Positions 7,429 through 24,983 of a DNA stretch of 64,000 bases are shown here, in pieces; the stretch's first letter is position 1, and the number at the start of each line of letters is the position of its first letter. The notes under the pieces are model-generated. The model worked only from the letters and a program-made list of their open reading frames with translations. It was not told where the DNA came from and searched no databases. The position numbers and the translations under genes were made by a program. The DNA comes from Myxococcus stipitatus (GTDB lineage: Bacteria > Myxococcota > Myxococcia > Myxococcales > Myxococcaceae), in NCBI RefSeq assembly GCF_038561935.1, contig NZ_CP102770.1, positions 9,238,001-9,302,000 on the forward strand, written 5' to 3'.

Positions 7429-8831
7429 CTGTCATGTTCTCGCGACGAACCGTCCTGAAGGGCATGGCCGCCGGCCTCTTCGCGCCCTACTTCCACGACG
7501 TCTACGCCCAGTCGTCCGCGTTGCCGGCGCGCCTGGTGCTGGTCCTCGAGTGCAATGGCGTCTACCCCCGCGCGCTCCTGAGCACGGGCACCCGCACGGC
7601 GCTGGGTGGACGCGCCAACACGTCCGACCGCATCTTCTGGGACGCGTACAAGGACACGCCGCTGGTGCGTGAGGACGACAACCTCGCCAGCGCGCTGTGT
7701 CTCGGGCCGCTAGCGGCGTCTTCCGGCAACATCGACCTGGTGAAACGCTCCGCCGTGCTGCTGGGGCTCTCCAACCTCATCGCGGGCGGCGGACACTCCA
7801 GCGGGACGGGCGGGCTGAGCTGCGCGGTGAATGGCGCGGGCGCGACGTTCGACGCGGTGATTGCCCCGCGTCTGCGCCGTGGGGCGCCGTTCGATGTGCT
7901 GCGCCTGGGCACCAGCTCCGCGCGCGTGTCCATCGTCTACGAGACCTGCGCGCTCGGACCGCGCAAGCCCGCGGGCATCATCGTCAACCCGTCGCTCGCG
8001 TTCGACAGCACCTTCGGCTCGCTGCTCGGGGGCTCGACGACCGGGCGTGACCGCAAGATGCTCTTCGACTTCGCGCTGGCCGACTCGCGCAAGGCACTGG
8101 CGGAGTTCCGAGGCAACTCCAACGAGCGGCTGAAGCTGGAGCGCTACCTCGCCTCGCTCGAGTCGCTTCGCACGCGGGAGAACCAGCTCGCGGGCATGGC
8201 GGACCGCGTGCGGCCCTACCTGCCGCCCGCGCCGAAGGACAACCCGCTCATCACCGGCGCTGGCTCACCGCCCGACTCGCTGAAGTGGTTCGAGGCGCAG
8301 TTCCAGATTGCCACCGCGTCCCTCCTGGGCGGGCTGACGAACACGGTGGTGCTGGCGACGGGTACGTCGGGCTTCGACGTGGCCTATGGCGCGGACGTGG
8401 CCGACGTGCAGCGCCACAGCCTGCAGCACGGCCTGGATGCGGGGCAGAACTGGGACCGCGTCGCCGAGGTCACCCGCCGCCACGTGCAGCTGGTGGCGAA
8501 CCTGGCGAGGACGCTGGCGGCCACGCCCGAGGTCGGCGCGAGCGGCTCGATGCTGGACCACACCGCCATCGTGTTCATGTCCGACAACGGCGAGCAGCAC
8601 CACTCGACCTCGCGGGAGTGGCCGAAGCTCGTGGTGGGTGGCAACGCGCTGGGCCTGAAGACCGACGGGCGCACGGTGGTGTACCCGAAGTACGACGCGG
8701 CCCGGAACCGGCAGGTCTCCAACCTCTTCAACACGCTCGGCCACGCGTTCGGAGACGTGGACTTCAACACCTTCGGGCAGGAAGGCAGCACGCGCATCGC
8801 GCCGGGACCGCTGAGCGAGCTTTACGGCTGA
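7425..8831 (+). CDS. DUF1552 family exported protein
   Basis: A 468-residue DUF1552 protein, the usual partner of DUF1592 proteins. The N-terminus carries a twin-arginine export signal, SRRTVLKG, followed by a hydrophobic stretch ending near VYAQS, so it is probably folded before export by Tat. ATG at 7425 overlaps the previous stop; ATG at 7434 (MFSRRT) is an equally possible start. The central part has conserved-looking motifs: GGGHSSGTGGLSC near residue 125, a coiled ERLKLERYLASLESLRTRENQL segment, and a late IVFMSDNGEQHHS segment resembling the metal site of alkaline-phosphatase/sulfatase-like DUF1501 and DUF1552 proteins. Its substrate is unknown. The two genes form a likely two-protein extracytoplasmic complex. 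Confidence 0.92.
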   Translation: MTVMFSRRTVLKGMAAGLFAPYFHDVYAQSSALPARLVLVLECNGVYPRALLSTGTRTALGGRANTSDRIFWDAYKDTPLVREDDNLASALCLGPLAASSGNIDLVKRSAVLLGLSNLIAGGGHSSGTGGLSCAVNGAGATFDAVIAPRLRRGAPFDVLRLGTSSARVSIVYETCALGPRKPAGIIVNPSLAFDSTFGSLLGGSTTGRDRKMLFDFALADSRKALAEFRGNSNERLKLERYLASLESLRTRENQLAGMADRVRPYLPPAPKDNPLITGAGSPPDSLKWFEAQFQIATASLLGGLTNTVVLATGTSGFDVAYGADVADVQRHSLQHGLDAGQNWDRVAEVTRRHVQLVANLARTLAATPEVGASGSMLDHTAIVFMSDNGEQHHSTSREWPKLVVGGNALGLKTDGRTVVYPKYDAARNRQVSNLFNTLGHAFGDVDFNTFGQEGSTRIAPGPLSELYG

Positions 8832-15503: not shown

Positions 15504-17105
15504 TCAACGCTCGTCGACTCTCAAGAGGGAGACCTTGTAGCCCATCCGCATCAGCCGGTCATGGGCATGGGTCAGGTTGAGCTGACTGAAGAATGGCAGG
15601 GAGTGAGGCCAGTTCGACTTGTGCTTGGTGATGATGGCGAACACCACCTCATATTTTGAGGGGTCGGGCCTGGTATCGGGGATGAACTTCCCCAGCGTGG
15701 GCCGTGTCTTCACGACCTGATTCCGGGTGTGGGCCCGGAACGCGGCATCCATCAAGAAGGAGTCGGCGGAGACGACGCCTTGCGCGAAGAGGTGGCTCAG
15801 TGTCGCGGAGCGCGTCTTTCTCTTCACATGGACGAACTGGCTGTCTGTCGTGAACAGGTCGCATGCCTCGATGGCAGTCTTGCTCTCGTCCACGAAGGCG
15901 TTCTTCCGGTCCATCAGCGCATAGTTCTTCGAGGTCTTCGCCACCTGGCTGTTGTAGTCGTTCTCGTGCTGCGCGCTCCCCGCGGGCGGAAGCACGAGCG
16001 TCGAAGCCGGAATCCGCCCCAACTTCGCCTTCACGCCATCGGCGAACCCCTTGTCGAGCTGGAACCATTCTCCTCCGGAGAGGACGTAGACTTTCCCGTC
16101 CAGCTCCGTCTCGAAGACAATCGTGTCGAACACGCTCCATTTGGAGAGCGGCACGTCCGAGTTCGAGAGGTGGAGCCTCACCATGTCCTTCTTGAGCCTC
16201 GCGAGCGAGAGCTCCTCCTCGTCCACGGTCCGGAGATACTCCTCCATCAGCAACTCATAGCGAGGAGACAATTCATCCTCCGTGGAGAAGGAGAGCCCCG
16301 GTGACTCGCGCCAATCGATGATGTCGGGAGGCGCCAGATGCAGGTCATCGTGTTTCTTGGAGCGGATCGTCTCGAGCAACGTCGTGGACAGCCTCTCGAT
16401 CACTGACGGGTCGCGCACGGCCCGCAGCCGGTCGAACCAGGGGAAGTGCTCCCGGTAGACCTTGTCCTGATAGGCCGTCAGCAGCCTTTCACACTTCGCG
16501 CCCAGGTCTTCGACCTCCAGCTTCGCGCTCAACGCCAGAGAGTCCGACCCCGCGATCAGCTTCGCGAACTCCGCATCGCCAGGCTTCCCCGCGATGACCC
16601 GAGGGATGTCCTGATGCAGGTTCAGCGCGAACGCCGTCATCGGTGAGTTCTGGCTCAACTGCTTCCGCGTCTGCGTCGTGAGGCTCTCGACGTTCCTCAC
16701 ATCGACGCTCCGAAGCTGCTTCGGGTCCACCGAGTTCAGCACCACCTTGATGCCGAAGTCTCGCTCGAAGCAGTCGCTCTTCAGCAGGTTCCTCCCGTGC
16801 CCCTGGGTGAAGACCAACCACCGCTTCTGAACCTGAATGAAGAGGACTCCGCAGATGTTGTTATGCCTCGGTTCCGGGAGGCGCTCCTCCAGCATCGGCG
16901 ACACAAAGCCCATCCACGCGGGGGCATTGGCTCGCTTGGAGGACACATAGAACTCCCCCGTGAACCCCATCCCGCGCTTCATCTTCATCGGTTCCACGGA
17001 GCTGAGGTCCTTGAGACAGTCCTTCGGCTTGCTGAACTCGCTCTTGATCAACAAGGCGGTCAGATGCCTGACACGCTTTCGCGGCTGAGCCTTCTTCGTA
17101 GCCAC
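15504..17105 (-). CDS. DUF6119 / TIGR04141 family sporadically distributed protein
   Basis: A 533-residue protein starting at the GTG at 17105 with GGGGGA just upstream. The pattern fits the TIGR04141 family: an N-terminal beta-strand region, a middle FPWFDRLRAVRD segment, LAPPDIIDWRE near residue 270, then VFETELDGKVYVLSGGEWFQLDKGF and a C-terminal VVFAIITKHKSNWPHSLPFFSQLNL. Family members are about this length, very patchily distributed and often found near restriction or other defence genes. No function has been demonstrated to my knowledge. It is convergent with the RiPP operon and transcribed alone. It lies about 3 kb from the RelA/SpoT-ATPase operon, so this part of the window may be a variable island. 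Confidence 0.8.
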   Translation of the reverse strand: MATKKAQPRKRVRHLTALLIKSEFSKPKDCLKDLSSVEPMKMKRGMGFTGEFYVSSKRANAPAWMGFVSPMLEERLPEPRHNNICGVLFIQVQKRWLVFTQGHGRNLLKSDCFERDFGIKVVLNSVDPKQLRSVDVRNVESLTTQTRKQLSQNSPMTAFALNLHQDIPRVIAGKPGDAEFAKLIAGSDSLALSAKLEVEDLGAKCERLLTAYQDKVYREHFPWFDRLRAVRDPSVIERLSTTLLETIRSKKHDDLHLAPPDIIDWRESPGLSFSTEDELSPRYELLMEEYLRTVDEEELSLARLKKDMVRLHLSNSDVPLSKWSVFDTIVFETELDGKVYVLSGGEWFQLDKGFADGVKAKLGRIPASTLVLPPAGSAQHENDYNSQVAKTSKNYALMDRKNAFVDESKTAIEACDLFTTDSQFVHVKRKTRSATLSHLFAQGVVSADSFLMDAAFRAHTRNQVVKTRPTLGKFIPDTRPDPSKYEVVFAIITKHKSNWPHSLPFFSQLNLTHAHDRLMRMGYKVSLLRVDER

Positions 17106-18045: not shown

Positions 18046-18873
18046 ATGTCTGAGTATGCAGGGAGTCGTCGAAGTGCATCCCTGGATGCGTTGTTCGTCG
18101 AGACACCCAAGTCCACACTGCTCCCACCCAAGAAGCAGCTGGACGTCGGCAGGCCCCTCAAGAAGTCGAGTCCACAGCACAAGGCGCTGCTCAACCGCCT
18201 GATGGCGATGCACCCCGTCGACCACCTGTTGATGGGCGCCTCCGGAGCCGTCGCCTTCGCTGAGTCGGCCAGTCAGCGCGCGCAGAGCCTCGGCTTCACC
18301 AAGCCCGCGGATGTGCTCAACTACCTCGACCTGATGGTCATGTTCGGGCACCGCTTCGACATCGACCCCCAGCTTCCCTGGGTGGGCCCCGCGCTCAGCA
18401 AGAAGTCGATGACCCTGCTCTTCGAGAGCGCGCTGTCCTACCTGGGCACCGTCTCCGGGGACACCGGCAACCTCTACATCAAGGCCTTGCTCCGAGCGCG
18501 CAAGGTCTCCCCCACCTCGCTCATGGACAGGGTGGGCGTCTCGGAGAGTGAGGCGTCGCGCCTGCTCTCCACCCTCCACCCCGAGAAGAGCCGGGCGATG
18601 GGCTCCCAGCTGTCGTCCCTGCTCACGCTCGCGCAGGCGCTCGTGGCCCCGCACAGCAAGGGTGTGCGTCCTCTCTATCTCGTGCTCATGTACCTGCTGG
18701 GGAGCCACTTCGAGACCGACCCGAGATACGCGTGGGCCAGCGTGCTCCTGCGCGACTCCCAGACCAGCGAGTCCCTTCGCTACAAGAATCTCTACGCGGA
18801 AGCCTCTTCAAGACTCCGCCTCGCGCTCCGTGCACGCGGTGGGCTCGAGACGCTTGTCGAGGAGGTGCGCTGA
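18046..18873 (+). CDS. Unknown soluble protein with duplicated FG.xFDxDP motif, partner of a metzincin
   Basis: A 275-residue protein with no signal peptide or membrane segment and mostly predicted helices. The ATG at 18046 starts MSEYAGS. A motif occurs twice: LDLMVMFGHRFDIDPQLPWV at about residue 98 and LVLMYLLGSHFETDPRYAWA at about residue 213. This suggests an ancient internal duplication of a region of about 110 residues. It is coupled to the downstream metalloprotease by a TGATG stop/start. Similar helical proteins with FG..FD.DP..PW motifs occur in myxobacteria next to secreted enzymes or type VI-like genes as far as I recall, but I cannot assign a family. It could be a chaperone, adaptor or inhibitor of the protease. 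Confidence 0.8.
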   Translation: MSEYAGSRRSASLDALFVETPKSTLLPPKKQLDVGRPLKKSSPQHKALLNRLMAMHPVDHLLMGASGAVAFAESASQRAQSLGFTKPADVLNYLDLMVMFGHRFDIDPQLPWVGPALSKKSMTLLFESALSYLGTVSGDTGNLYIKALLRARKVSPTSLMDRVGVSESEASRLLSTLHPEKSRAMGSQLSSLLTLAQALVAPHSKGVRPLYLVLMYLLGSHFETDPRYAWASVLLRDSQTSESLRYKNLYAEASSRLRLALRARGGLETLVEEVR

Positions 18874-19772
18874 TGGGCTGCTGTTTCGGCAGGAGACGAG
18901 CGGAGCGCCTGCGTCCCGTCGAGGTGGAGGAGCCGCCCCTCGAGCAGCCGTGGGAGACGGAGGAGTGGGCGACCCGAACGATGTGGACGCTGGATGAGCG
19001 GGACGATGTCGAGAATGTCTTCGACATCCTGGCCGTGTTCTCGAGCGAAGGCGCATTCATGGAGTCACTCGAGCGCATCGACCAGGACCAGCTCCTGGAG
19101 AACATCCACGAGTGCATCCGGCAGATGAACGAGGCGTTCCATCACAGCGGCGTCACCGTGAGAGGGCGCCTGGTGGCCATCGAGCGGTTCTCGCCTCCAC
19201 CCCCCTTCATCACGACCTCCATGTACCGGGACGCCTTGCTAGGGGAGCCAGCGAGTGGGGCGGAGCGCGAGCGCCGCCGGCAGGAGCCCATCCCTTTCGA
19301 AATGGATGACTACTACGGGTCCATCCGAAACATGTGCCTGACGCTCCGCGGGCGCTACCGGCCGCACGTCGTGCTCTTCGTCTCGGGGAACATCGGCGAC
19401 CCCATCAGCGGTGGCATCGGGGTCACGACGTGGGACGAGTCCATCGCGGTGGTGCCAGCCGCCAAGCTCCTGAACGAGCATGCGCCCGCGCACGAGATCG
19501 GCCACCTCTTCGGGTGTGAGCACAATCGGGAGGCCGTCACGGTGCGCACCGGCGCGTCCTGCTACGGCTACATCGCCGACCACTGGCGCACCATCATGGC
19601 CTACAACACCACCGAACCCCAACGCGAAGTCCCCGTCATCGGACGCTTCAGCAATCCTGACGTCAGCTACAACGATGGCAAGCATCCGCCGCACGTCACG
19701 GGTGACGCAGGCGCGAACAACGTCCTGCAAATCAATACCTTCGCCCCGACGCTCCTCGGGATTCGCGACTGA
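18873..19772 (+). CDS. Metzincin zinc metalloprotease without signal peptide
   Basis: A 299-residue protein starting at ATG 18873, overlapping the preceding stop. The zinc motif HEIGHLFGCEH (HExxHxxGxxH, about residue 207) is followed by TIMAYNTTE, the Met-turn that defines metzincins. Between them is a Cys/Tyr-rich loop (GASCYGYIADHW). The N-terminus begins MGCCFGRRRAERL with no Sec or Tat signal, followed by an acidic stretch. The protease domain itself begins around LQENIHECIRQMNEAF-like helix at residue 70, suggesting a small pro-region. Lack of a signal and coupling to an unknown partner suggest export by another route (for example as a type VI or contractile-system effector) or a cytoplasmic role. 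Substrate unknown. Confidence 0.88.
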   Translation: MGCCFGRRRAERLRPVEVEEPPLEQPWETEEWATRTMWTLDERDDVENVFDILAVFSSEGAFMESLERIDQDQLLENIHECIRQMNEAFHHSGVTVRGRLVAIERFSPPPPFITTSMYRDALLGEPASGAERERRRQEPIPFEMDDYYGSIRNMCLTLRGRYRPHVVLFVSGNIGDPISGGIGVTTWDESIAVVPAAKLLNEHAPAHEIGHLFGCEHNREAVTVRTGASCYGYIADHWRTIMAYNTTEPQREVPVIGRFSNPDVSYNDGKHPPHVTGDAGANNVLQINTFAPTLLGIRD

Positions 19773-20055
19773 GGATGTTCCTACCTCGATAGAGGGGCGA
19801 CTTCGAAACTTGGAGGCGCCACCGCCGCATACCACCGTCGGCGTCACCGCGCGTGGAGGAGGGGCGTTCAGGAGGCGCCCTCGCCAGTCCGAGCCCGGGG
19901 GGCCCCCTCCACGCTGCTGACCGAGGGTAATCCCGTAGGCCGGACTGAACTTCCTGTTTCCTGGACCGGACTTAGCGCTCCTCACACGGTGAGCGGTGGT
20001 GGGGAACTTGCTCCTCTTCGCCGCCCAACCCGTGAAGCGATTTGCCAACAAGGAA
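19773..20055. other. Gap between metzincin operon and RelA/SpoT-ATPase operon
   Basis: Roughly 280 bp. On the minus strand a stretch near 19820-19860 reads PRAVTPTVV, matching the GAVTPTVVYGYGG region of the prolyl oligopeptidase gene at 25.7 kb. 22 consecutive bases are identical (19831-19852 and 25671-25692). It may be a scrap of a related gene or a chance match. A large hairpin overlaps it. Confidence 0.4.
19851..19914. terminator. Large hairpin after the metzincin gene
   Basis: GCGTGGAGG (19851-19859) pairs with CCTCCACGC (19906-19914); further internal pairings are possible. It lies about 80 bp after the metzincin stop and upstream of the next operon, so it may separate the two transcription units. 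No T-tract. Confidence 0.45.
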
Positions 20056-20097
20056 GTTGCACAACTAGCCTGTTGTACAACTGGCGTGTTGTGTATC
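20056..20097. promoter_or_regulatory. Three operator-like repeats with 16-bp period
   Basis: GTTGCACAAC (20056-20065), GTTGTACAAC (20072-20081) and GTTGTGTATC (20088-20097) recur exactly every 16 bp. The second is a perfect palindrome and the first differs by one base pair. A weaker copy (ATTTGCCAAC, 20040-20049) keeps the same phase. The array ends 24 bp before the likely GTG start of the RelA/SpoT-like gene, so it overlaps the promoter or leader. It looks like a cooperative repressor site; no DNA-binding regulator is encoded next to it, although the operon's third protein has a winged helix. Confidence 0.65.
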
Positions 20098-20120
20098 TCC
20101 GGCCAGAGAGGGAGGGAGTG

Positions 20121-20987
20121 GTGCCAGCCTCCGAAGCATGGATCCCCGAGGCGCGGCGCCGCCTCGTCGACGACCACTTTCCCTGGGACGAAGTGGGTAC
20201 CCGCCCAGAGATGTGGGAGGACCGCCTTTCCGAGGTCTATCGGTGGCTCGAGCAACACAGCGCTCTCTACCGACTCATCGCCACGGGGCTGCTCGCACGC
20301 GTCGAGCCGATTCTCGACCAGCTTCAGGCGGCGGTACTCGAAGTCGAGCCAGACCGCCTCTTCGTGAAGGTGGATGCCAGCCACATCACGAAGTCGCCGG
20401 AGAGCATTCTCGAGAAGATGGCGCGGAAATGGCCAGGACTCGAGCAGGCGCCGCCTGTCAGCTTTCACAACGTCGATCAACTCAATGACCTGGGCCGCTT
20501 TCGCATCGTCGCCAACTTCCTCGGTGACGTGGACGACATCACCCGGCACCTCTCCGAGCCCTATGACGCGAGAAAGGCCTCGCTGCTCACCCCGGCTCAG
20601 CGGCTCCTTCGCGATGAGTTCACCCTTCACGATAATCGCTTCGAGGACCTCATCCTCGTCCCACCCAACTCTCGCACGAGCGGCGAGCGTTGCCGCAAGG
20701 GCCGGTTCAGCCCGAGGCAACCCGAACTACGTGGACACCAGGTAGAGGTGCAGATCGTCACGCTGCTCCAGGAGGCCTGGGACAAGAAGGACCACTGCCT
20801 CATCTACGAACGTGTCCGCCGCGGCGAACACGTTCCTCTCATGCACCAAATCATCTGCACCGATTTGAGCGCCCAGCTCTTCGTCGCGGACTCCCAGTTC
20901 GAACAGCTTCGGCGTGAGGGGCTCCCTCGTCGGGAAGAGTCCACTGGCACCTCCGAGCTCCAGGAGAACCAACGTGCGCCTGCGTAA
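20121..20987 (+). CDS. RelA/SpoT-like nucleotidyltransferase, first gene of an ATPase operon
   Basis: A 288-residue protein; the GTG at 20121 (or 20118) follows GAGGGAGGGA, while longer frames run through the operator repeats. RelA/SpoT synthetase features appear in order: ITKSPESILEKM (the KSxxSxxxK motif, about residue 93), NDLGRFRIVANFLGDVDD (D.xG.R motif with the metal-binding Asp, about 117), and HQVEVQIVTLLQEAWDKKDHCLIYE (the E.QI.T...W....H..YE block with the second acidic residue). The GYxxxH loop of housekeeping synthetases is not seen; an Arg/Pro-rich segment replaces it. There is no hydrolase domain, TGS or ACT. It thus resembles small alarmone synthetases, including toxic ones that pyrophosphorylate nucleotides or tRNA. 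It overlaps the next gene by 14 nt. Confidence 0.8.
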   Translation: MPASEAWIPEARRRLVDDHFPWDEVGTRPEMWEDRLSEVYRWLEQHSALYRLIATGLLARVEPILDQLQAAVLEVEPDRLFVKVDASHITKSPESILEKMARKWPGLEQAPPVSFHNVDQLNDLGRFRIVANFLGDVDDITRHLSEPYDARKASLLTPAQRLLRDEFTLHDNRFEDLILVPPNSRTSGERCRKGRFSPRQPELRGHQVEVQIVTLLQEAWDKKDHCLIYERVRRGEHVPLMHQIICTDLSAQLFVADSQFEQLRREGLPRREESTGTSELQENQRAPA

Positions 20988-22395
20988 CGAAGCCCTGGCG
21001 ACTGGAAGCCTGCTGGTCCTCCCGCCATCGGGGACCACTCCCAGAACCCACAGTCTATTGCTCCTGGTCGAAGGCGCCGCTGACATCCGCGCGCTGAGAA
21101 ACATCGAAGCGGCGTGCGCGCCTGTCGTGGGGCGCCAGGTGAAGTGGCATACGGTGGCGAATCAGCGGGACCTCGCGACCATCTCACCGCGGCCAGACCC
21201 GTCCCGGATTACTCGCGTGGAGGTCGCTGAACTCCGAGGACTCTCCGTCGAGGTCCTTCGCGAGTTGCTCATACCTGCCCTGCTCCTGCTCCAGCAGGGA
21301 CAGCCATGCTTTCCTAGCGCGACACGCACAGAGGGGAGCGTCGTTCACGGCGTGGATTTCCTGGGCCGAGATTCCGAACTCACGGCGCTGCGCGAGTTCG
21401 TCATGTCCGGTCAGCATGTCCTCCTGGCGGCACCGCGCAGATCTGGGAAGACCTCGCTGCTGCGTCGGTTCGCGGAGCTGAATACCTCCGAGCTGAATAC
21501 CCTCTTCGTGGATGTGGAGTCATTTCAGTCCGCGGAAGTCCTGACCAGCGAGTTCGTCGCTCGAAGTCGAGGACAGGTCTTCACGACGGAAGTCCTGAAG
21601 CAGGTCCGTGGACGGGGATGGCAAGGCGCACTGAGCGAGGCCATTCGCTCGCTCGCCTCCGGCCCCAAGCCCCTGGTGCTCATCCTCGATGAACTCGTCT
21701 TCCTGATAGACAACCTCCGGCGCACCCCGGAAGACGTCTTAGAGCTGCTCACAGTGCTGGGGGCAGCAGTGGCGGAAACCGGAGCCCGCCTCGTGGTCGC
21801 AGGTTCGATGCCACTGGAGCAGGTGACCCGCGACCTGCTCACTGGCCCCCTGCCTGGGGCGTTCGGAGCGCTCCGTCGCTACGCCCTGCCACCGCTTGCC
21901 CACGACAGACTCGCATTGGATTTGAGGCGCGTCATGCTGGGAACAGGGCTTGTCGCCGAGAACGGAGACATGGACTGGCTGTTGCGGAACGTCGACTTCT
22001 CGATGCCCTACCCCGCGCTCCGGTTCATCGCGCATCTTGCATCGTCAGCCTATGAGCGCGCCCTGAGCGCCGCGACACTCGATGAGGAGCTCGAGAACTT
22101 TCTTTCGAGAACAACCGCCTTCGCCGAACTCCTCGGGCAGATTCGACTGGAAGCGCAGACCCATCTGTCCATCGCGCAGGGGGTCGAAAAAGTTCTCGAC
22201 CGGCTCTCACGAGCAGACGCATCCATGGACGCCCAGGACGTCCGGGCGATGCTTGGCGATACCGAGAAGTCCCAGGAGCAGCGCTTCGCCTGGCTGGTCG
22301 AGTACTTCCCTCTCACTCTCGAACAAGGTCGGGTCCGCATCGCCTCCCGTCTCTTCCAACGATTCTGGCGCGGGCATCGAGGTCGCACACCGTGA
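20974..22395 (+). CDS. AAA-type ATPase, second gene of the RelA/SpoT operon
   Basis: A 473-residue protein. The GTG at 20974 has AGGAG seven bases upstream and overlaps the end of the RelA/SpoT-like gene. An N-terminal domain of about 135 residues contains a LLLLVEGAADIRALRNIE segment (a fold resembling an effector-associated domain, not identified). The ATPase core has VDFLGRDSELTALREF, Walker A APRRSGKTS (about residue 155), Walker B PLVLILDELVFLID (about 233) and a sensor-like LVVAGSMPLEQ. This is the archaeal-type/STAND-related AAA pattern (ATPase_2). A C-terminal helical region with a winged-helix-like end (AWLVEYFPLTLEQGRVRIASRLFQRFW) follows. It ends in GTGA overlap with the next ATPase. 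Probably senses a trigger and controls the nucleotidyltransferase. Confidence 0.82.
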   Translation: MRLRNEALATGSLLVLPPSGTTPRTHSLLLLVEGAADIRALRNIEAACAPVVGRQVKWHTVANQRDLATISPRPDPSRITRVEVAELRGLSVEVLRELLIPALLLLQQGQPCFPSATRTEGSVVHGVDFLGRDSELTALREFVMSGQHVLLAAPRRSGKTSLLRRFAELNTSELNTLFVDVESFQSAEVLTSEFVARSRGQVFTTEVLKQVRGRGWQGALSEAIRSLASGPKPLVLILDELVFLIDNLRRTPEDVLELLTVLGAAVAETGARLVVAGSMPLEQVTRDLLTGPLPGAFGALRRYALPPLAHDRLALDLRRVMLGTGLVAENGDMDWLLRNVDFSMPYPALRFIAHLASSAYERALSAATLDEELENFLSRTTAFAELLGQIRLEAQTHLSIAQGVEKVLDRLSRADASMDAQDVRAMLGDTEKSQEQRFAWLVEYFPLTLEQGRVRIASRLFQRFWRGHRGRTP

Positions 22396-24983
22396 ACAGC
22401 CCCATCTCTCTCTACAATCCACGCTCCACGCCGCCAGCGCAGCTCGAGGCCATGCTCGTGGGACGGGACGCGCTGTTGAAGGAGCTGCTCGACAACCTCC
22501 ACGCGCAGTCGCGTTCACGAACCCGCCAACACTGGCTCCTTCGAGGACCGAGAGGCATGGGGAAGACCCACCTCACTGGGGTCCTCCACCATCGAGTCAG
22601 GGGAGATGCTCGACTTTCGGAGAGCTATCTTCCGCTCTGGCTCGGGGAGGCCGATGTCTACGAGGTCTACTCTCCAGCGACGCTCCTGGAGCGCATCGCG
22701 GAGCGACTGGTCGAAGCCGTTCCTGATGCGAAGCTCGCGGCGACCCTTCACACCCTCGAAGGCGTGGGTGACGAGGAGGGCTTCTTCCAGGAACTCTCGA
22801 GCCACCTCGGCGAGGAGGCCGAGCGACAGGGAAAGACCCTGCTGGTGTTGATGGAGAATCTTGATGCGCTCCTGGAGAGCTTTGCCGCGAAGGAGCGCGA
22901 GGCGCAGGTCCGCCAGCTCCGCTCCCTGCTCCTCCATGCCCCGCATTTCCTGTTCATCAGCACCACGCCGACTCGCTACATGGTGGAGCTGACGGACCCG
23001 AAGAAGCCCCTCTACAACCAGTTCAAGGAGCGGGACCTCCGCCCCCTGAGTGTGGAGGAGGTCGGCGTCGTCTTCTCGAAGCTGGTCGAGCTGACGGGAC
23101 GAAAGGGGATGGAAGCCGTCCTCGGCGACAGACAGGATGGAGTCCTCCGCCGCAAGGTGATTCATCAGCTCACGGGTGGGTTGCCGCGCTCGGTGGTCAT
23201 GACCTTCGAGGTGATGAGGGACAAGACCGGCATCAAGGCCTTGGTGGAAGACCTGCGGCGACTGCTGGACGCACAGACGGCCTACTTCGAGGCCCGACTC
23301 GCCCGACTCGCACCTCGCGAGCGGGCCATCGTGACCACGATGGCCCTGGCGTCCACCAACCTCACGAGCAAGGAGATCGCGACCCGAAGCCGGCTCCCCG
23401 AGCGGACGCTCTCCACTTTGGTCTCCCGGCTCGTCCAGGACGGCCATGTCGAGCCCACCTCTGGAACAGGTGGGAAAGGGACAGTCTACGGCCTGAGCGA
23501 GGGACTCTTCCGCCTGTGGTACCAGTACCGAAAGGGGAGGCTGCTGCTGGAACCCCTGGTTCGATTGCTCGCCTATCTGTTCAACCCGAGCGAACTCCAG
23601 GAAACCATCGCGAGACTCCAGCGGCACGTCGAAGAGAACCAGCCCGACTCACAGGACTCGGCCCATCTAGCGCTGCGGCAAGTCGAAGAGGCCTTGCGGC
23701 TCGCGACATCCGAAGAGGGACGGCTCGACCGAGAGCGACTCTGGAAGGAGTGCCAGGAAGAGGCGACAGCTATCCGGGATGCCCGCCAGACCATTGACCA
23801 ACTGAGAGCCTTTGTCAGCAAGTACAAAAACTTGGCCCCTCGGAAGAAGTTCCCTCCCATTATTGAGAGCGCTCTCAAGGTCATCCAGCGCCTGCCAGCC
23901 CCCCTTGCTACGGACTGCATCAGTTGGTTCAACGCCAGCATGTACGTGCTTTCGCTTCACAGCCCCGTCTTGGCAACTCGCCAACTACATCGCCTCCTGA
24001 ACTTTCTGGAATCTCAAGATAGTTCACTTCGTGAACTCGGCCCCTACACTCACCTTTCATTGGGCATCATCCACGAGAAGTCCGGCCAGGTTGAAGAAGC
24101 CCTGAGGCATATCGAAGCAGTGATTCTTGCCAAGAGCGCGTACAAGCCCAGGGTTGGCCCATTCCCGCTCGAAATGGCCCGCTGGATCAGGGCTGAATTG
24201 TACAAGAAGATCGGCCGCACTCCTGAAGCCATCCGCGATTACTCACACGTCATCGAAAGTGCACTCAGGTCTGGAGGCATACAAACCTCAATGGGTCTAC
24301 ATGCAGCCAATGCCCTCGCACGCGTTCACGAGAAAAGCGGAGACTGGAAACAGGCCAAGCAAGCCATCCACAATCTCCTCAAGCTGTCCGACAGCCTGCC
24401 GTTCCACAAACGAGACCGTCAGTTGATTGCGGGTGCGCAACTCCGACTCATTTTCAACAAGATGGCTCTTGGCGATCCCGCTTTGGTTCGGTTGCTCTCA
24501 TCCCTAGAACAGTGGATCAAGGAGAACCCTCACCACCAATTCATCGACATCGCACAAGAGATTTCGACCAGGCATGCGCCCATCATGAACATGTTTTCGG
24601 AGCGTAATCCGCAGCGAAGAGTCACCACGTTCCTGAGCAATCCCAACGCCTTCTATTCTAACCTCCCCATCGAGCAGTTGCGCCAACTCATCAAGGAACT
24701 CGAGGAATCGGCTTCGCCGGAAGAAGCTCCCCTAGTGCACACACACGCACTGGTTGCCGAGACCCTTGATGCAACCATTCTCAACGCACCGGGGGCAAAA
24801 GCCCGCCTGAATCGCGCACTCGGCCGACTCCCACCGGAGCTACGACAGGTGGTTCGAGAACGAATCGCCGATGAACAGACACGCGCCCCCACTCAACCGC
24901 CCCCTCCCAAGCGGCGCACAAACTCGTCATCCCCGGCACGGCCCGCGGCCTTGCGTTCGGCCGCGGACCCATTGGAGCGTTAG
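22392..24983 (+). CDS. STAND-like ATPase with winged helix and TPR-like repeats
   Basis: An 863-residue protein; GTG start at 22392 overlapping the previous stop. Residues about 20-320 form an AAA/STAND NTPase: FVGRD-like MLVGRDALLKELLDNL, Walker A RGPRGMGKTH (about residue 52), Walker B TLLVLMENLDALL (about 150) and FLFISTTPTR sensor. A winged helix follows (LTSKEIATRSRLPERTLSTLVSRLVQDGHV, about 325). From about residue 480 to 800 the protein is helical with TPR-like repeats (LGIIHEKSGQVEEALRHIEAV, ANALARVHEKSGDWKQAKQAI), a typical sensor arm. The last 50 residues are a Pro/Arg-rich tail. The repeat half is visibly lower in GC than the ATPase half, suggesting a different origin. Likely a ligand- or invader-sensing member of the operon. 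Confidence 0.82.
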   Translation: MNSPISLYNPRSTPPAQLEAMLVGRDALLKELLDNLHAQSRSRTRQHWLLRGPRGMGKTHLTGVLHHRVRGDARLSESYLPLWLGEADVYEVYSPATLLERIAERLVEAVPDAKLAATLHTLEGVGDEEGFFQELSSHLGEEAERQGKTLLVLMENLDALLESFAAKEREAQVRQLRSLLLHAPHFLFISTTPTRYMVELTDPKKPLYNQFKERDLRPLSVEEVGVVFSKLVELTGRKGMEAVLGDRQDGVLRRKVIHQLTGGLPRSVVMTFEVMRDKTGIKALVEDLRRLLDAQTAYFEARLARLAPRERAIVTTMALASTNLTSKEIATRSRLPERTLSTLVSRLVQDGHVEPTSGTGGKGTVYGLSEGLFRLWYQYRKGRLLLEPLVRLLAYLFNPSELQETIARLQRHVEENQPDSQDSAHLALRQVEEALRLATSEEGRLDRERLWKECQEEATAIRDARQTIDQLRAFVSKYKNLAPRKKFPPIIESALKVIQRLPAPLATDCISWFNASMYVLSLHSPVLATRQLHRLLNFLESQDSSLRELGPYTHLSLGIIHEKSGQVEEALRHIEAVILAKSAYKPRVGPFPLEMARWIRAELYKKIGRTPEAIRDYSHVIESALRSGGIQTSMGLHAANALARVHEKSGDWKQAKQAIHNLLKLSDSLPFHKRDRQLIAGAQLRLIFNKMALGDPALVRLLSSLEQWIKENPHHQFIDIAQEISTRHAPIMNMFSERNPQRRVTTFLSNPNAFYSNLPIEQLRQLIKELEESASPEEAPLVHTHALVAETLDATILNAPGAKARLNRALGRLPPELRQVVRERIADEQTRAPTQPPPPKRRTNSSSPARPAALRSAADPLER

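Follow-up and report, generated by a model that had tools for sequence, protein, structure and literature searches.

Three perfect inverted repeats, set in tandem with a period of 16 bp, precede a three-gene operon (g1-g2-g3) of Myxococcus stipitatus; the array is real and it is conserved at homologous operons. Our preferred explanation, to which we give a probability of roughly 70%, is that the array would serve as the operator of the operon promoter and that the NLR-like ATPase g3 would repress its own operon through it. The initial annotation of this DNA had suggested that the repeats are operators of a repressor, possibly the winged-helix ATPase of the operon itself, and the comparative evidence from sequences supports such an interpretation.

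Structure of the array and its position on the promoter

In the window (the whole stretch of 64,000 nucleotides that was analysed) three perfect CAAC-N6-GTTG inverted repeats with a 16-bp period and 2-bp gaps span 20046..20091. Operator 1 (CAACAAGGAAGTTG) lies at 20046-20059, operator 2 (CAACTAGCCTGTTG) at 20062-20075 and operator 3 (CAACTGGCGTGTTG) at 20078-20091, and each is an exact match. The initial annotation had described this region as decamers recurring at exactly 16 bp, with a weaker fourth copy in phase upstream. All of these are in place: GTTGCACAAC at 20056-20065, GTTGTACAAC at 20072-20081, GTTGTGTATC at 20088-20097 and the weaker copy ATTTGCCAAC at 20040. The 16-bp repeat thus stands and the decamer as its unit does not, the better parse being CAAC-N6-GTTG plus a 2-bp gap. 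The earlier noted GTTGNACAAC is the junction between neighbouring units, and by this parse the weaker fourth and the degenerate third decamer copy become the outer half-sites of three perfect operators. GTTGNNCAAC as the repeat unit was dropped, since the clear arrays start with CAAC and end with GTTG; a first pattern based on it missed genome G022, which is recovered by the CAAC-N6-GTTG tandem pattern. The half-site centres of each repeat are 10 bp apart, i.e. one helical turn. Dimeric winged-helix regulators commonly bind half-sites spaced in this way.

The single decamer is only mildly enriched in the window (12 matches at up to one mismatch, shuffle mean 5.47, with 2/100 shuffles reaching 12), and it is the tandem arrangement that stands out. 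Specifically, GTTGNACAAC-N6-GTTGNACAAC at up to three mismatches has 5 overlapping matches in the whole 10.17-Mb genome, all within the array, while its reversed control has 1. The 180 bp upstream of the g1 start codon contain 3 exact CAAC-N6-GTTG sites, a number that none of 1000 dinucleotide shuffles of the same 180 bp reaches even when one mismatch is allowed. Identity at lag 16 is 20/26, which is reached by 0/300 shuffles and is the best among lags 8-40. A functionless repeat that arose by chance or drift is practically negligible as an explanation: short repeats are common, and three-unit GTTGNNCAAC in viral sequences is not above the controls with other spacing, but the shuffles, the genome-wide rarity and the conservation across distant loci contradict it. 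The earlier statement that the array is hard to obtain by chance is borne out. Plasmid iterons were also considered and rejected, because the array stands directly before g1 on a 10.1-Mb contig and not beside a replication initiator gene; g1-g3 have no replication initiator match at the cut-off in Pfam and NCBIfam.

The array overlaps promoter-like elements. A putative −35 element, TTGCCA at 20042..20047 (+), overlaps the first half-site, its promoter function being assigned by sequence comparison. After an 18-bp spacer, a putative −10 element TAGCCT at 20066..20071 (+) falls in the centre of operator 2; it was deduced from relatives that have TATTGT, TAATGT or TATAAT at this place. Both elements of the window match the consensus poorly; TTGACA is the −35 in 12 of the 15 promoters compared. 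A Shine-Dalgarno-like GGGAGGGAG at 20110..20118 (+) precedes the GTG start at 20121.

According to sequence comparison, TTGACA or TTGCCA runs into CAAC in the myxobacterial operons, and 18 bp on a poor −10 of the type TACCTT, TAGGTT, TAGCCT or TGGCTT forms the spacer of the next site; these arrays lie between the putative −35 and about +20. Loci L018, L019 and L020 have TTGACA and, behind a 17-bp spacer, TATTGT, TAATGT and TAAAGT, respectively, and these elements overlap the array. At L021, L160 and L161 the sites come after a TATAAT-like −10, and at L163 and L165 they lie before and over the inferred −35. The sites thus overlap sigma-70-like elements (called by consensus) at varying offsets. 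Overlap that is kept while the offset varies fits a repressor, and an activator would not easily tolerate such positions. It is consistent with the earlier proposal that the repeats sit where a repressor would block transcription.

An activator site that switches the operon on is an improbable alternative. Activators can be recruited by direct repeats, the promoter of the window is weak, and at L163 and L165 the arrays have the upstream placement just described. Most arrays, however, cover the −35 to start region, and the position after the −10 at L021, L160 and L161 would be a poor place for an activator. Action at the RNA level, as a transcribed leader, was set aside as unlikely for L163 and L165, where the array mostly precedes the inferred −35.

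The operon and its distribution

The first gene, g1 (20121..20987, + strand, GTG start), encodes a divergent RelA/SpoT-type synthetase-like protein of 288 aa. It is overlapped by g2 (20974..22395, +), which encodes a STAND-type ATPase of 473 aa. The third gene, g3 (22392..24983, +), encodes an AAA+ ATPase of 863 aa with a winged helix at about 308-368 and a TPR C-terminus. The overlaps 20974/20987 and 22392/22395 suggest one transcript. Directly upstream of the operon, at 18732-19772 (+), the window has a gene for a reprolysin-like M12 metallopeptidase; at L010 and L011 a longer HELGH-motif protein is encoded some kb from the operon, and kinship of the two is not implied. A DUF6119 family protein (15504-17105, −; Pfam E 1.6e-147) is encoded nearby.

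The g1 protein matches Pfam RelA_SpoT (E 1.8e-6, 28.6 bits, the gathering score being 27) and, in a profile comparison, RelQ/YjbM 5f2v (E 4e-9) and also YwaC; in NCBIfam the window protein has no match, and its relative at L021 matches YjbM below the cut-off. D123 and E209 are invariant in 10/10 g1 proteins and align with acidic residues of the RelQ synthetase motifs. SGYRS of RelQ corresponds to SGE in 8/10 g1 proteins, with Asn in 1/10 and His in 1/10; L015, one of the ten, has TGE. The Tyr of SGYRS stacks the nucleotide. As this Tyr is lost, we call g1 synthetase-like, and it may use another acceptor.

A scan of species genomes gave nine loci with g1 relatives: three in myxobacteria, three in Deltaproteobacteria MAGs and one each in a Solibacteraceae MAG, a Lentisphaeria MAG and a MAG titled Marinifilum, the last title being doubtful. 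At all nine loci g2 comes after g1, and g3 follows in 7/9; at L016 and L018 the contig ends first, and another contig of the L018 genome begins inside g2 and carries g3. The 16-bp array is present at 9/9. Conservation at homologous loci, proposed earlier as a check of the array, was thus looked for and found at every homologous operon examined that has a readable upstream region.

A g1 match is present in 13 of 195 phylum genomes; it is of operon grade (E 1.2e-13 or lower) in 10 and weak in the other 3. A g3 match is found in nine of the ten genomes with operon-grade g1. The tenth, G142, has a decayed copy, as judged from its g1, a short piece interrupted by an in-frame stop, and from the lack of a g3 match in the genome; the operator array upstream of this decayed g1 is intact (G142:C36:5276-5485, locus L030). 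The first tandem pattern occurs in 9/195 phylum genomes, all among the ten (reversed control 1/195). The exact CAACN6GTTGN2CAACN6GTTG is found in 11/195, namely in all ten operon-grade genomes, where it sits just before g1, and in G026 (reversed control 0). In the genus the first pattern, at up to one mismatch, occurs in 3/27 genomes, each time at the operon (reversed control 1/27). Within the phylum the tandem site is nearly confined to the operon family; the half-site sequence differs in some relatives. Upstream of 21 RelA/SpoT loci outside the operon there is no comparable pair within 1.5 kb (best 9-11 of 16), whereas two operon loci in the same comparison score 15-16 of 16. Outside the phylum the operon is rare: when the g1 profile was run on genomes drawn from two other phyla, only the starting genome gave an operon-grade match; 14/297 and 4/288 genomes match at all, the rest of them weakly.

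Periodicity was surveyed in 26 upstream regions, i.e. 22 of operons and four of plasmid loci. The 22 comprise 19 with g1 (including the decayed G142, and L016, whose contig ends before g3) and three with g2-g3 only. Among lags 8-40, lag 16 scores highest, alone or in a tie, in 22/22 operon regions, those from MAGs of other groups among them, and at most 5/300 shuffles reach it; the ties are at L016 (with lag 19) and L157 (with lag 15). At none of the four plasmid loci is lag 16 the best, the best lags being 27, 31, 15 and 20. At least one CAAC-N6-GTTG site with up to one mismatch was found in 21/26 regions and none at L160, L157, L158, L131 and L132. L021 has a single site at this threshold, which 57/1000 shuffles reach; each of the other 20 regions has at least two, a count that no more than 12/1000 shuffles attain. 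Left out of the periodicity and site counts were L159 and L164, whose upstream sequence is missing or too short, and L162, a near-copy of L161 whose own array is visible in sequence comparison. At L160 and L157, where starts are uncertain, the surveyed segment was moved into the called ORF by 30 and 20 bases, respectively.

A site without the operon is available for comparison. The G020 operon of roughly 5 kb with its array (L012 5822-10850) is absent from G026, where its flanks adjoin (L135 7276-7287); by this comparison the module looks like one discrete inserted piece. Neither g1 nor g3 has a match in G026. At a distance of about 1 kb from the empty site this genome carries an orphan pair of perfect operators (G026:C13:66292-66321; L135 about 8293-8322), either a remnant or chance.

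Candidate binder of the array

In distant groups the sites turn up together with the operon, and related genomes that lack it have almost none of them; the binder should accordingly be an operon product. Since operon and array are found together in MAGs titled Solibacteraceae, Lentisphaeria and others, the binder most likely travels with the operon. A conserved host regulator from outside the operon is a very unlikely binder. An operator alone does not name its protein, and G026 has its orphan pair in a genome lacking g1 and g3; apart from G026, however, the tandem site is absent from the phylum genomes without the operon, and it recurs with the operon across distant groups.

Plasmid relatives help to choose among the operon proteins. 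The plasmid search found g3 relatives in 8 records and no g1 relative. On Agrobacterium (L134) and Sphingobium (L133) plasmids g3 occurs without g1 or g2 in the fetched stretch. L134 has four CAAC-N6-GTTG-like sites at up to one mismatch, one of them perfect (0/1000 shuffles reach 4), and L133, whose record has only 1.04 kb upstream, has two imperfect ones at the same threshold (2/1000 shuffles reach 2). Sites of this kind before two plasmid loci with g3 only point to g3, with its AAA+, winged-helix and TPR parts, as the likeliest binder. At a Moraxella locus (L131) a g2-like and g3 pair is accompanied by three ACTATAAAATTATAGT-type repeats 27 bp apart, and at L132 (g3-like, Mycobacterium plasmid) there is no array. 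Two loci of G107 and one of G011 have g2-g3 with a 16-bp array whose half-sites are different or partly different. The g2-g3 pairs without g1 at L156, L157 and L158 have a 16-bp array, with different half-sites at L157 and L158.

Viral contigs gave no g1 relative; among phages the L019 g1 query gave three records with weak RelA/SpoT-like matches. Viral arrays were not counted, the three-unit GTTGNNCAAC being present in 6 stretches versus 2 for the 17-bp and 27 for the 15-bp spacing control. L047 and L050, two of these six, resemble each other, and a tblastn search with the operon proteins gave no hit in any of the six stretches. On viral contig L051, GTTGNNCAAC repeats joined by CTAG stand just before an ORF (1061-1102), possibly as an unrelated operator.

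In the AF2 models g2 and g3 fit the AAA+ and winged-helix module of solved STAND/NLR proteins. The g3 model (pLDDT 79.6, pTM 0.56) is nearest to A. pernix ORC2 1w5s (Z 20.2, rmsd 4.2, 333 aligned), tied with 2qen (19.6); NRC4 gives Z 18.0, and the top Foldseek rank is held by the STAND-TPR protein 6mfv. TPR families (Pfam) and modelled helical repeats at about 490-831 make up its C-terminus. The winged helix of the window g3 matches MarR_2 at E 7e-4, below the Pfam cut-off, and the curated cut-off is passed by that of relatives, with TrmB at L133 and MarR_2 at L132. For the g2 model (pLDDT 86.8) the nearest structure is the archaeal Walker ATPase 2qen (Z 19.1, rmsd 5.1, 316 aligned), and plant NLRs come second.

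We consider it unlikely that g2, or a complex of g2 and g3, is the repressor that binds the operator. The g2 model also ends in a predicted winged-helix-like unit, and g2 stands beside g1 or g3 in 9/9 and 10/10 loci of two surveys, being missing only at a few plasmid g3 loci, which speaks against repression by g3 itself. Winged helices of STAND proteins are, moreover, often nucleotide-state locks and not DNA readers. Evidence to the contrary comes from the CAAC-N6-GTTG-like sites at the lone g3 loci L133 and L134 and from g2 itself, which has no match to a regulator family in Pfam at E up to 0.1.

A further lead in favour of g3 comes from its winged helix. Among 23 g3 proteins that go with an array, 18 have Arg at the residue aligned with Arg346, with GTT-type half-sites (read by eye). 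At this position there is Thr at L021 and Val at L160, where the sites are ATTG-rich, and Glu at L131, L157 and L158, where the sites are of other kinds; the g3 of L132 keeps Arg346 yet has no array. Automatic register choice gave other registers at G139, L017, L020, L163, L165 and L133 and was unclear at L021 and L157. With registers partly set by eye, the tracking of half-site type by residue 346 is only suggestive, and as g3 proteins are related to each other it is a lead and not a test.

With g3 as repressor the mechanism could be as follows. The protein, with its MarR/TrmB-like winged helix and TPR sensor-like tail, would bind the array as dimers or as a row of protomers. Bound g3 would cover the −35, −10 or start region, and g1-g2-g3 would thereby stay low. 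A signal sensed by the TPR tail, or the state of the ATPase, would then release g3, and levels of g1, the synthetase-like protein, and of g2, the other STAND ATPase, would rise. We infer from the sequence comparisons the binding by g3, the repression, the release by a trigger and a role in defence or stress. In the neighbourhood of plasmid g3 relatives there are genes with the annotations QatD, Pycsar effector, AbiE-type toxin-antitoxin and cyclase/ThiF; L132 shows none of this kind. These neighbours make a conflict role of the operon family plausible.

Relation to known systems

The literature consulted describes toxSAS and STAND systems as well as an AAA ATPase antitoxin hub (PMC10440598, PMC10907252, PMC8832971, PMC8195603). 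Word searches of open-licence PMC papers returned, in the text they cover, no description of this operon, of the array or of a STAND ATPase that represses its own promoter. No known antitoxin is named for g2 or g3 by Pfam, PADLOC or NCBIfam, and PADLOC gives only weak matches for the window proteins.

Our analysis outlines a three-gene module of an alarmone-synthetase-like protein and two STAND ATPases. If repression by g3 is true, DNA reading of the Orc1/Cdc6 type and sensing of the NLR type would be joined in one protein, and the promoter would offer a simple read-out of receptor state, helpful for finding the trigger. A broader and more tentative idea, which we hold to be possible and somewhat doubtful, is that the members of a bacterial NLR-like receptor family would also act as sequence-specific repressors of the operons that encode them. 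The winged helix, a lock in eukaryotic NLRs, would here read DNA as in Orc1, a trigger-driven conformational change would both free the promoter and unleash an effector of the alarmone-synthetase type, and operator sequence and recognition helix would evolve together across the family.

Promoters covered by tandem operators are known from other autoregulated operons, e.g. those of type II toxin-antitoxin systems and of self-repressing MarR/TrmB-type regulators. The operon studied here resembles them in having palindromic sites over −35/−10 that are near-unique to their own operon and co-inherited with it. It differs in the proposed repressor, a large AAA+/TPR STAND ATPase and not a small antitoxin or MarR protein. 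Compared with the small alarmone synthetases RelQ/RelP and toxSAS (CapRel, FaRel2), g1 is alike in matching RelQ/YjbM and YwaC and in keeping the acidic residues D123 and E209; it differs from RelQ in lacking the SGYRS Tyr, and its partners are ATPases and not a recognised toxSAS antitoxin.

As in STAND/NLR ATPases (Avs, bacterial NACHT, NRC4, CED-4 and the archaeal 2qen and 6mfv), g3 is predicted to combine AAA+, a winged helix and a TPR tail, and its plasmid relatives are found near genes annotated Qat or Pycsar. In contrast to those ATPases, the putative effector is a separate gene, there are two STAND ATPases per operon, and the promoter carries an array. In archaeal Orc1 it is the winged helix that recognises the repeated sites of the origin. 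The modelled AAA+ and winged helix of g3 superpose on ORC2 (1w5s) of this Orc1/Cdc6 family; here, by difference, the array is at a promoter, in an operon with no recognised replication gene.
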